From NCBI GenBank assembly GCA_003251535.1, contig QKFD01000076.1:1-64000 (forward strand): 64,000 nt of DNA, read 5' to 3'. Below are positions 54,628-59,299 of the stretch, in pieces. Below the pieces are notes generated by a model. That model saw only the letters and a list, made by a program, of their open reading frames with translations, was not told where the DNA came from and made no database searches. The position numbers and the translations under genes were made by a program. Source of the DNA: Chromatiales bacterium. GTDB taxonomy: Bacteria > Pseudomonadota > Gammaproteobacteria > Thiohalomonadales > Thiohalomonadaceae. Each line of letters begins with the position of its first letter. Position 1 is the first letter of the stretch.

Positions 54628-56223
54628 TCAGGCGGCACCTGTATCGAAGGGTTGGGGGTTGAGGCGCCGACTGATATCCACCCCCACCATGACAATCCCC
54701 TGGAGGTCGTGGCCAATGTCGCGCATCACCGTGAGGGAGAAGAGGACGGGGATCTCGCGCCCATCCCGGCCCAGGCAGATGTGCTCAAGATTGGTGATGG
54801 TGCCCTGTAATACCAGGTCGGTGAGTTGGGGATCGGCAAGAAAGGGGGTGCGACAGATGCGCTCCACCTGCTGGCCCACCAACTCATCGGCGCGATAGCC
54901 GAGTAGTTGGCAGGCGGCGGGGTTGACCACCTGGATCTGGCCATCGGTCGCCAGCATCACCAGTAGATCAGACATATTGCCGAGGATGCTATCCACATAC
55001 TCTTTGGAGACGGTGGCCAACTTCAGCTCCTCGGTCATGCGATTCAGGGCCGTGCCGAGGAGGGCGATCTCGTCATCCCCCTGGACTTGGAGACGGGTGT
55101 CGAGCCGCCCCTTGCCGATGCGGCGCGCCGCATCGCTCATCACCAGTAGCGGGCGGGCGATCTGGCGGGTGAGTAACAGCCCAAGGGCGGCCACCACGCA
55201 GGCGATGAGCACAAAACCCAACAGCAGGCGCCGACGAGAGTCGGCCACCGGTGCAAACGCCTCGGTGCCGTCGATCTCTGCCACCAGTGACCAGCCCTGG
55301 TTCAGTAGCGGCTCCTTGACCGCCTCTAGTGCCACCATCCGCTCTTGCCCCCTCACCAGCCACGGATGGGCACCGCTAATGGGCAACCCATTGCGGGTCA
55401 CCGCCTCCCAGCTGGGCAGGTGGTGGGCAAAGGCGGCGGCCGGCAGGTCGTGATCGCTCTCTGTGGGGGCGGAAGAGGTGGGGGAGGGGGTGCCGAAGAG
55501 GATGTAACCATCGCGGTCTACCAGACTCAAGCGCAACGTGCGGTGGCGCTCCGACTCCTCCGTGCTCTCGATGATGGCCTGGATGGCCGCTAGGTCCAGC
55601 ACCGCCTTGACGATGCCCACCAGGCGCCCCTCCAGTCGAAGTGGCAGGACTAGATCGACCGAGCGGCTATGGGCGCTGGCATCGAACTCCATCGGGCCTA
55701 GCCAGATCCCTGAGTTAGCCGTGGCCCGTTGATACCACGCCTCATCTGCTTGGAGGAAATCACTGGTACGACCGGTGGTGGCGATCACCACGCCGCGCTC
55801 GTTGGTGAGATAGATCTCGGCAAAGAGTGGATGGCCTGCCGGGGCGCGGGTATGCATGTAGCGACGCAGTGACTGGGCCAGGGGGTGGTTGAGGGCCTCG
55901 ATCAGGGCGGCCGGGGTGGCGCCGCTGCTCCAGGCGGAGTCAATGGCGGCGAGGGTGGCATCATCCACCGAGCGGTAGTCGGCACTGGAGGTGGCGGCAA
56001 CGGTGGTCAGATCGAGGGCGGCCGCGAGAGCCACCAGCTCCTGCTCCCGCCCGCCAATGGTCTGCGCGACTTCATGGGCGGCGGTCCGGGCGAGCAGTTG
56101 GAGCCGCTGGCCAATGGCCTGTTTGAGGGCGCTCTCGGACTCCTCCACGGCAAACAGGGCGCTGCCAAGCAGCAGGAGCCCAAACAGGGTAAAAGAGAGA
56201 CCTAGCTTATGGCTGATGCGCAT
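54628..56223 (-). CDS. Cache-HAMP-PAS membrane sensor without output domain
   Basis: 531 aa. One membrane segment near the N-terminus (about 8-25), a large periplasmic Cache-like domain (about 35-310), a second membrane segment, HAMP (RQIARPLLVMSDAARRIGKG) and a PAS domain (SILGNMSDLLVMLATDGQIQ to the end). The protein stops after the PAS. There is no kinase, GGDEF, EAL or methyl-accepting domain. The ATG at 56223 lies 17 bp inside the end of the EAL-CBS-GGDEF gene, so the two are coupled and may act as one split signalling system. Confidence 0.85.
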   Translation of the reverse strand: MRISHKLGLSFTLFGLLLLGSALFAVEESESALKQAIGQRLQLLARTAAHEVAQTIGGREQELVALAAALDLTTVAATSSADYRSVDDATLAAIDSAWSSGATPAALIEALNHPLAQSLRRYMHTRAPAGHPLFAEIYLTNERGVVIATTGRTSDFLQADEAWYQRATANSGIWLGPMEFDASAHSRSVDLVLPLRLEGRLVGIVKAVLDLAAIQAIIESTEESERHRTLRLSLVDRDGYILFGTPSPTSSAPTESDHDLPAAAFAHHLPSWEAVTRNGLPISGAHPWLVRGQERMVALEAVKEPLLNQGWSLVAEIDGTEAFAPVADSRRRLLLGFVLIACVVAALGLLLTRQIARPLLVMSDAARRIGKGRLDTRLQVQGDDEIALLGTALNRMTEELKLATVSKEYVDSILGNMSDLLVMLATDGQIQVVNPAACQLLGYRADELVGQQVERICRTPFLADPQLTDLVLQGTITNLEHICLGRDGREIPVLFSLTVMRDIGHDLQGIVMVGVDISRRLNPQPFDTGAA

Positions 56224-58063
56224 GGGGGCCGCCGCTGCGGTGGGCATAGTCGCGGCGGTTGATGTAGAGGCTATTGCCCGCCTGGCGCTTGGCCATCTTC
56301 TTGGTCTCTGAGGCGGCCTGGGAGATCTCCATATAGGAGGAGAAGAGCCCGGGAGGGACCACTACCGCACCGATGGAGAGGGTGGTGAGGGGGTGAAATT
56401 CCTTCTCGCCCCGTCGATTCTCCGTGAGATAACCGCCCCGCTCCTGATCCTCTGGATTGAAAAACCCAGCCACCTCTGTGCCAAAGCGCTCCAGTGTCTG
56501 TTGGCAGCGGCTCTCCCAGTCGGGGGTGCGGAAGAGGGCAATGAAGTCATCCCCCCCGATATGGCCAAGGAAATCGTGCTCCGGATGGCAGCTCTCCAGT
56601 AGGAGCTTGCCGGTGAGGCGGATCAGCTCATCGCCTCGACTGAAGCCGTAGACATCATTGAATGGTTTGAAGTGGTCGAGATCGCAGTAGCAGGCGACAA
56701 AGGGCAGGCGACGCGCCAGCAGCTGGTTGATGCGCTCATTGATGGGGACGTTGCCGGGCAGCTGGGTGAGGGGGTTGGCATAGCGTGCCGCCTGGATCTG
56801 GAGATCGGTGATCTCGCGGATGAGATCGTGACCGGTGCCGATACCGAGGTAGCGCCCCTCTTCGGTGATGATGAAGCCGTTGGAGAGGTGGCGACGATCG
56901 GCCCCGGCCACCAGATAGGAGAGCTGTTGGAGGCTCAGATTCTTGTCCACCAGGAGCGGTTCTGGATCCATAAAGATGGCGCAGGGGCGCCGACCGAACA
57001 GCTCCAAGTGGTAGGGGCGGGCCAAGCGGTCGATGAGGGCATGGCGGTTGACCAGACCGACCGGTTGATCATCCTTCACCACCGCGATGGCGTTGAGATC
57101 GGGATCGACCTCAAAGCGGTCGAAGAGGGTGCAGTTGGGGGTATCGGGGGTGACCGGTGCGGCCCGGATGAGGAGCCGGTGTTCGATGATGCAACACTCA
57201 TCGCGCCCGGTGGGTAGGGGCGGCTGCGGGGCTAGGGTGCGGATGACATCGGCCGAGAGCACAGCGCTGGGGCTCAGGCTGGGGCGCCCCAGGTGGTAAC
57301 CCTGACCAAAGACGATGCCAAGGGTGGTGACCTGGGTCAGCTCCGAGTGGCTCTCTATCCCCTCCGCCATGGTCTGCCAGCCCAGGGCTCGGGCCTGCTC
57401 CAGCAATTGGCGCACGTAGCGGCGCTTGATGGCGTCAGTGTCGATGTTTTGGATAAAGTGGCGATCAATCTTGAGATAGTCAGGGGCGATGGCGGCCAGG
57501 CTGGCTAACTCCTCTGGTCGCCCACCCCAGTCGTCGATGGCGATGCGGTAGCCGAGGGCGCGGTAGCGCTCAAGGGCTCGGCCAAGGATCTCTAGCCGAA
57601 AATCGTAGCCGGAGTCGGTCTCGCTCAGCTCAATCACCACCCGCGCCGGATCGAGCGCCAGCTGGCGGAGAAAGCCAAACACATGGCGGGTACGGACATC
57701 GTGCAGTAGCAGGAGATCGGGACTGATATTGATGAACAAGGTGCCGGGCAGCTTGCTCTCTACAAAGCGCTCGACAATCACCTTGCCGCAGAGATTCTCT
57801 AGCTCATAGATGAGCCCGGCCTGACGGGCCGCCTTGAAGAGCTTGCCTGGGGCGTGCAGCTGGCTGTCCGAGGGGCCGCGGATGAGCCCTTCGTAGCCCA
57901 CCACCTCGGCAGAGCGCAGATCCACTACAGGCTGAAACAGAGCGGTCAGCTGCTCATGCTTAATCAGCTGATAGAGTTCATGGGCGGTGGGGCCACGGGT
58001 TGTGGTCGTTACCGAGGGGGAGCGTGGCATCGAGGTGGGGAGGATCTGGGTCTGGGCGTTCAT
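56207..58063 (-). CDS. EAL-CBS-GGDEF cyclic-di-GMP protein
   Basis: 618 aa. The order is unusual: an EAL domain first (EGLIRGP at 58-64, then IELSETDSGYD, IDDWGG, DYLKIDRHFI, MAEGIES), then a pair of CBS domains (about 285-420), then GGDEF (GGDDF at 503-507). EAL metal ligands appear kept, so phosphodiesterase activity is likely. GGDDF may still be active. No inhibitory RxxD site is visible five residues before it. CBS domains may bind adenine nucleotides. The soluble protein overlaps the sensor gene and follows a structured leader or sRNA region. Confidence 0.88.
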   Translation of the reverse strand: MNAQTQILPTSMPRSPSVTTTTRGPTAHELYQLIKHEQLTALFQPVVDLRSAEVVGYEGLIRGPSDSQLHAPGKLFKAARQAGLIYELENLCGKVIVERFVESKLPGTLFINISPDLLLLHDVRTRHVFGFLRQLALDPARVVIELSETDSGYDFRLEILGRALERYRALGYRIAIDDWGGRPEELASLAAIAPDYLKIDRHFIQNIDTDAIKRRYVRQLLEQARALGWQTMAEGIESHSELTQVTTLGIVFGQGYHLGRPSLSPSAVLSADVIRTLAPQPPLPTGRDECCIIEHRLLIRAAPVTPDTPNCTLFDRFEVDPDLNAIAVVKDDQPVGLVNRHALIDRLARPYHLELFGRRPCAIFMDPEPLLVDKNLSLQQLSYLVAGADRRHLSNGFIITEEGRYLGIGTGHDLIREITDLQIQAARYANPLTQLPGNVPINERINQLLARRLPFVACYCDLDHFKPFNDVYGFSRGDELIRLTGKLLLESCHPEHDFLGHIGGDDFIALFRTPDWESRCQQTLERFGTEVAGFFNPEDQERGGYLTENRRGEKEFHPLTTLSIGAVVVPPGLFSSYMEISQAASETKKMAKRQAGNSLYINRRDYAHRSGGPHAHQP

Positions 58064-58185: not shown

Positions 58186-58212
58186 AAAAAAACCCCCGCC
58201 AAACGACGGGGG
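58186..58212 (-). terminator. Strong intrinsic terminator in the EAL-GGDEF upstream region
   Basis: Read leftward: CCCCCGTC, loop GTTT, GGCGGGGG, then seven T. It ends transcription about 120 bp before the EAL-CBS-GGDEF start. No protein gene lies on this strand to the right for more than a kilobase, so the transcript it ends must be a non-coding RNA or the leader of the downstream gene. Confidence 0.88.
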
Positions 58213-58357
58213 GTTGCAAAGACCACAAGTGGGTCAGTCCGTTGGCGCCTGGTCGATCCCTCTTCCAGGTGCATCCCTTCGTCGGACGGCCTGAAACGCT
58301 CAATCCCTTGTCGAGGTGGATAAGGCGAACACGGGGGACCAACCTCGATTGTCCGAC
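58186..58357 (-). ncRNA. Candidate structured GGA-rich small RNA (CsrB/RsmY-like)
   Basis: Leftward, about 172 nt, between parA and the EAL-CBS-GGDEF gene. P1 pairs GTCGGAC (58357-58351) with GTCCGAC (58287-58281). P2 pairs TCGAGGT (58348-58342) with ACCTCGA (58317-58311). P3 pairs CCTGG (58269-58265) with CCAGG (58252-58248). P4 is GACCCAC, TT, GTGGTC (58235-58221). It ends in a strong terminator. Six GGA motifs occur; five lie in loops or single-stranded parts, three as AGGGAT. This is the pattern of RNAs that sequester CsrA/RsmA. The promoter was not identified, so the 5' end is a guess. A transcription-attenuation leader for the downstream gene is the alternative. Confidence 0.5.
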
Positions 58358-58483
58358 GGGCAGATGCTACCAGTGAGCCGATGGAATGGAAGTGCCGATG
58401 ATCACAGTTCAACCCCATGATCCGCTTTGGTCCAGCGGCCAGAAGTGGGGTATATTGGGAAAACCCTTAGCAAAATAGAGAAA

Positions 58484-59299
58484 ATGAGACGGGTACTCGC
58501 GGTAGTCAATCACAAGGGGGGAGTCGGGAAGACCACCTCGGCGGTCAACATTGCCGCGGCCTTGGTGGAGACCGGCGCGCGGGTACTACTCATCGATATG
58601 GATCCCCAGGGCAGTGCCAGCCTGAGCCTGGGGCGGAGCGATAACGGTCGGCGACTGATGACCGCCTTGCGCTCCGGCCAGCCACTGCCGGTGGCCTCAT
58701 CTGCTGTGACCGGCTTGGATCTGGTGCCGGCCGGCCCCGATCTAGGGGAGCTGCACCAGCTGTTTGCCGCGGCCCTCGGCGCCGAGCTACTCCCTCGCTG
58801 TCTGAAGCGGTGTGCCGGGGAGTGGGACTGGGTGTTGATCGATTGTCCACCCAGCCTCGGTGTATTGACCATGGGGGCGCTCAATGCGGCACGGCGGGTG
58901 TTGGTGCCGGTGGAGGCCAACTTCCTGGCCATGAGCGGCCTACAGCAGATGGTGGAGGCCATCGTGCGGGTGTCGGTGCGGATACCCGGCCTGGCACTGG
59001 AGGCGGTGGTGCCCTGTCGAGCACGGCCGCGGCGCCGTATTCACCAAGAGCTGATGGCCGATCTGGAGCGCCGCTTTCCCGGCCAGGTGGCCCCCTTCAT
59101 CCGCGAGAGCGGTGATCTCGCAGAGGCGCCGGCGGCAGGTCTGCCGGTGACCCACTTCTCTCCCAAGTCCCAAGGGGCGCAAGACTACCGGCGTCTCGCC
59201 AGGTGGCTAAGCTCCCGTTTTGAAACCCCGCAGGTGGCAGGGGCCCCGGTGGGGCTAGCTGTGGCGGGTGGTATCGCAGCGGCTGGGTCATCGGCTTGA
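58484..59299 (+). CDS. Orphan ParA/MinD-type ATPase
   Basis: 271 aa. A deviant Walker A (NHKGGVGKTTSAVNIA), Walker A' (LLIDMDPQGSASLSLG) and Walker B (WVLIDCPPSLGVLTMGAL) identify a ParA-type ATPase. No parB-like gene follows and no centromere-like repeats are seen, so it probably positions a protein complex rather than DNA. I prefer the ATG at 58484, right before the conserved strand; an earlier in-frame start at 58427 is possible. The C-terminal 30 residues are Ala/Gly-rich. Confidence 0.88.
   Translation: MRRVLAVVNHKGGVGKTTSAVNIAAALVETGARVLLIDMDPQGSASLSLGRSDNGRRLMTALRSGQPLPVASSAVTGLDLVPAGPDLGELHQLFAAALGAELLPRCLKRCAGEWDWVLIDCPPSLGVLTMGALNAARRVLVPVEANFLAMSGLQQMVEAIVRVSVRIPGLALEAVVPCRARPRRRIHQELMADLERRFPGQVAPFIRESGDLAEAPAAGLPVTHFSPKSQGAQDYRRLARWLSSRFETPQVAGAPVGLAVAGGIAAAGSSA

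Follow-up and report, generated by a model that had tools for sequence, protein, structure and literature searches.

The requirement for several GGA motifs is one of the classical arguments that an RNA serves as a decoy for CsrA-type proteins (PMC2375449), and the RsmX RNA of Pseudomonas fluorescens carries six such motifs (PMC4005645). Published affinity rules favour ANGGAX hexaloops that sit directly on a stem (PMC4005645). Here we describe a candidate small RNA (sRNA) of about 172 nt at positions 58186..58357 on the minus strand of a 64,000-nt stretch of DNA (the window) from a Chromatiales bacterium, where a terminator, helices and a cluster of motifs lie on the same strand. The host genome is a draft assembly of 130 contigs (95.6% complete, 4.63 Mb).

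Setting and anatomy of the candidate RNA

The candidate resides in a 420-nt gap between divergent genes. On the plus strand lies a gene for a ParA-type ATPase (parA, 58484..59299; Pfam AAA_31 and CbiA), and on the minus strand lies an EAL-CBS-GGDEF gene (56207..58063) that begins 122 nt 3′ of the candidate's terminator. All three domains after which the latter gene was named in the initial annotation were confirmed by Pfam. That annotation had also described four helices, a terminator with a U7 tail and six GGA motifs including three AGGGAT, and each of these elements is present when the sequence is read from 58358 to 58186. No strand had been given for them; all prove to be minus-strand features (58357 to 58186). 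The accompanying statement that the region has no coding frame holds only loosely, given that a 146-amino-acid frame spans the region, yet Pfam matches were lacking in each of the three local frames examined.

The intrinsic terminator (58186..58212, minus strand) consists of CCCCCGUC-GUUU-GGCGGGGG followed by seven U nucleotides, and is the sole terminator-like match between 57900 and 58700. Because both flanking genes point outward, this terminator should end a transcript that starts within the gap, unless it serves to stop antisense read-through from the right. A strong terminator in a divergent gap implies a short transcript begun there, and the arrangement of the sequence therefore makes it probable that a stand-alone sRNA gene lies between the two divergent genes. 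A possible extended −10 element, TGGTAGCAT (58364..58372, minus strand), would place the transcription start near G58357, the base at which helix 1 opens in the initial annotation, although in a promoter scan this element (58372-58364) scores under the threshold.

Helix 1, which starts at 58358 or 58357, is formed by 8 base pairs between CGUCGGAC (58351..58358) and GUCCGACG (58280..58287, pairing from 58287 to 58280). Helix 2 (58311..58348) has 7 base pairs, UCGAGGU (58348-58342) with ACCUCGA (58317-58311), and encloses a C-rich loop. Helix 3 (58248..58269) has 5 base pairs, CCUGG (58269-58265) with CCAGG (58252-58248), and its loop is AAGAGGGAUCGA. All of these helices are on the minus strand, as are the three AGGGAT motifs, which fall within 53 nt and belong to a set of six GGA and four ANGGA motifs. 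Motif 1 (58303..58308) is located 3′ of helix 2, motif 2 (58273..58278) in the linker joining helices 1 and 3, and motif 3 (58256..58261) within the loop of helix 3. The GGA in this loop is the most accessible in the predicted ensemble (0.76-0.80 unpaired), and two GGAs are predicted to be accessible in the candidate overall, one of them in a hairpin loop. Thus, the earlier description of the AGGGAT motifs as residing in loops or unpaired segments is apt for one motif and partly so for a second, but not for motif 1, whose two Gs are predominantly base-paired in the ensemble.

The fold itself is unexceptional, with an energy equal to that of shuffled sequences. For 58358-58186 this energy is −64.5 kcal/mol, compared with a shuffle mean of −62.4 kcal/mol (z of −0.5), and nested helices of 8 and 7 base pairs arise in 50 of 2000 shuffles (2.5%). 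Shifting the 5′ end by 3 nt flips the minimum free energy (MFE) structure to a different fold. In addition, GGUUGGUCCC (58335..58344, minus strand) can pair with GGGAUCGACC (58260-58251); the competing fold that results, 2 kcal/mol above the MFE, conceals motif 3. The terminator is present in all folds computed, including this competing one. An RNA from the plus strand, which folds with a z of −2.4, was also considered and was rejected because only the minus strand gives the correct orientation of the terminator and its U-run.

The motif cluster is more distinctive than the fold. Six GGAs per 172 nt are common (7.7% of windows of that length), whereas three AGGGAT motifs in the same length are rare (0.09%). 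The pattern AGGGATN{0,30}ARGGAN{0,30}ARGGA occurs five times across the 4.6-Mb genome, and of these matches the candidate is the only one that looks non-coding; the other four, judged from their sequences, resemble coding Gln-Gly repeats. Only the candidate carries a triple ARGGAT within 60 nt in the 1.96 Mb of the genome scanned. When ANGGA motifs were counted upstream of 357 terminator-like sites, in a scan that covered 1.96 of 4.63 Mb (42% of the genome), the candidate tied for the top position with two sites that look like the ends of coding genes.

Searches for relatives and known families

Searches for homologs found no relative of the candidate. Use of blastn with the candidate RNA against 56 relatives gave a self-match only, and a covariance model built from the single sequence (R1) revealed no ortholog in 369 genomes of the class. 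R1 produced matches at E ≤0.1 in 20 genomes, the host (G000) included, and the foreign matches inspected were rejected, as they align mainly at the terminator and are devoid of the AGGGAT cluster. A collection of plasmids held no match to the candidate. The host's genus is represented by one genome, the host's own, among those searched.

Examination of the neighbouring gene was equally negative. R1 gave three weak matches and no ortholog over 80 contigs surrounding relatives of the EAL protein, and no RNA was seen upstream of the orthologs of this gene in the host family, which are 34-42% identical and have different neighbours. The link to cyclic-di-GMP that had been drawn at the outset consists solely of adjacency; relatives of the EAL gene elsewhere occur without the RNA. 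The encoded protein shows up to 55-58% identity to proteins of Gallionellaceae and Sulfuricella. Because it is closer to these than to the proteins of its own family, its sequence suggests that the EAL-CBS-GGDEF gene was acquired by horizontal transfer.

The initial annotation recognized no known RNA family, and a search of Rfam agrees: none of 4227 families reaches its threshold with the candidate. The best sub-threshold match is rsmX (RF02144), with 17.7 bits and an E value of 0.55 relative to a threshold of 56. Across the host genome, neither RF00018 nor RF02144 gives a match at E 0.001. Upstream of the candidate, there is neither a canonical GacA/UvrY-type box nor a box of the TGTAGGA type described below. 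The canonical GacA box, with 2 mismatches permitted, occurs at 13 sites in the host genome compared with 25 for the reversed control, and the ten sites inspected have no convincing GGA-rich, terminator-ended RNA alongside. The search for a GacA-like response regulator turned up two unassigned LuxR-type regulators in the examined part of the host genome. CsrA is encoded once (G000:C1:127410-127565).

CsrB-like RNAs of the host family

A yardstick for the candidate comes from unannotated CsrB-like RNAs, which are GGA-rich, non-coding and terminator-ended, and which are present at an addAB-like locus in 11 of 20 genomes of the host family. This locus was reached through weak CsrB matches combined with the motif pattern, and is flanked by genes that, as read from their sequences, encode a PD-(D/E)XK-type nuclease (addB-like) and a UvrD-type helicase (addA-like). 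Loci of this kind are L343-L345 and L348-L355 (also L067, L318 and L327), as exemplified by G004:C25:74292-74452. An upstream box beginning with TGTAGGA (TGTAGGA-N4-TCTGATA-like) is common to nine of the eleven RNAs. All eleven fall short of the Rfam thresholds, and thus the negative Rfam result means little for the candidate; more generally, little can be concluded about Csr RNAs in the host family from a lack of Rfam matches.

When cut to their approximate lengths, the family RNAs have 4-14 accessible GGAs, compared with 2 in the candidate, although 3 of the 11 show just 2-4 when fixed windows of 173 nt are used. A model built from the family RNAs (R2) recovers all eleven at E below 1e-22, scores that are high because the eleven are its training set. 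Applied to the host genome, R2 gives a best E value of 1.2 and does not match the candidate, and the addB-like nuclease gene is absent from this genome. The host thus encodes CsrA and has no detectable decoy of the family type, which leaves room for another. The candidate is a weak fit to this role, given its 2 accessible GGAs and the absence of an upstream box.

Several further RNAs were encountered among the genomes surveyed. An additional R2 match (G015:C51:17121-17300, E 3e-6) lies away from the addAB-like locus, and a CsrB-like, GGA-rich, terminator-ended RNA that falls under the Rfam threshold was seen in another family of the class (L068, G026:C17:68110-68323). In one genus of the host family (g8; loci L325, L326, L328 and L329), tandem units of about 53 nt directly follow the T-run of a terminator. 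These units contain the hairpins GTCC-AGGGAT-GGAC and GGCC-AGGGAT-GGCC, which present AGGGAU hexaloops directly on a stem and so match the published high-affinity shape for CsrA/RsmE (PMC4005645). It is possible that these units are natural CsrA-binding repeats. Stretches of the window's own genome show no enrichment of repeats of this type.

A putative CsrA decoy and its alternatives

The best single reading is that the candidate is a small, RsmX-like decoy for CsrA, to which we assign a probability of roughly 0.4. If this model is correct, minus-strand transcription initiated near 58357 would stop at the RNA's own terminator and yield an sRNA of about 172 nt; CsrA dimers would bind to the AGGGAU motifs of the linkers and the helix 3 loop, and the bound CsrA would be drawn away from its target mRNAs. 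Consistent with this function are the location of the U7 terminator between divergent genes, the clustering of AGGGAT motifs, the single csrA gene, rsmX as the best of the weak Rfam matches, the lack of a detected family-type CsrB and of the nuclease gene beside it, and the placement of motif 3 in a hairpin loop. Set against these are the failure to find a homolog in the genomes searched, a fold energy not below that of shuffles, a competing fold only 2 kcal/mol away, the two accessible GGAs and the lack of a GacA-type box. Given that no relative was found and that the fold is no stabler than chance, the candidate is plausible but not demonstrated.

Other explanations account for parts of this pattern. 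Hfq-dependent sRNAs commonly act by base pairing in trans, and the C-rich loop of helix 2 (GGUCCCCCGUG) could pair with G-rich ribosome-binding sites while the U7 tail recruits Hfq, with the AGGGAT cluster being incidental. The loop and the tail fit such a role, but it leaves the genome-unique cluster unexplained and, with no homologs, no conserved seed can be demonstrated; we consider it unlikely. Slightly less likely still is that there is no functional RNA at all, and that chance motifs in a GC-rich gap happen to precede a terminator whose role is to block either spurious transcription or antisense read-through entering from the right. The z of about −0.5, the 2.5% of shuffles with nested helices, and the lack of conservation by blastn in 56 relatives and by R1 in 369 genomes all agree with chance, which nevertheless fits poorly with a strong terminator that is immediately preceded, on its own strand, by a motif cluster unique in the genome. 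The region might instead be the 5′ leader of the EAL-CBS-GGDEF gene, which shares its strand and starts 122 nt past the terminator, such that the terminator would act as an attenuator whose read-through could respond to CsrA or some other factor. This arrangement is very unlikely, since a leader of this kind is missing from relatives of the EAL gene, and no antiterminator is seen in the computed folds because the terminator forms in all of them and stays intact in the competing fold.

Should the candidate prove to be a Csr decoy, it would be one that had gone unrecognized, in a host whose relatives maintain their own decoys at a different locus, and would be an example of such RNAs being replaced and not conserved. 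An extension of this idea, which we regard as a long shot, is that the role of Csr decoy was taken on by a compact, unrelated RNA in a lineage that lacks both the addAB-like locus and the CsrB found there, and that this RNA has a switch through which CsrA release could be tuned when GGUUGGUCCC masks AGGGAU motif 3.

The likeness to CsrB, RsmY and RsmZ initially proposed is compatible with the genome-rare AGGGAT cluster and the presence of csrA, but is weakened by the 17.7-bit rsmX score, the few exposed GGAs, the missing GacA box, and the fact that the family's CsrB-like RNAs are stronger and located elsewhere. Similar to the family RNAs, the candidate is non-coding, GGA-rich and terminator-ended; unlike them, it resides at a different locus, has no sequence similarity and has fewer accessible GGAs (2 versus 4-14). 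Measured against the published affinity rules (PMC4005645), the candidate places just motif 3 in a loop, which exceeds the size of a hexaloop. It differs from RsmX, as well as from RsmY and RsmZ, in being longer, in having fewer exposed GGAs and no detected GacA-type upstream box, and in its rsmX score, 17.7 bits where 56 are required. Like the RsmX, RsmY and RsmZ RNAs of Pseudomonas, however, the candidate is short, ends in a terminator and carries several GGAs in predicted loops and linkers, and its total of six equals that of P. fluorescens RsmX.
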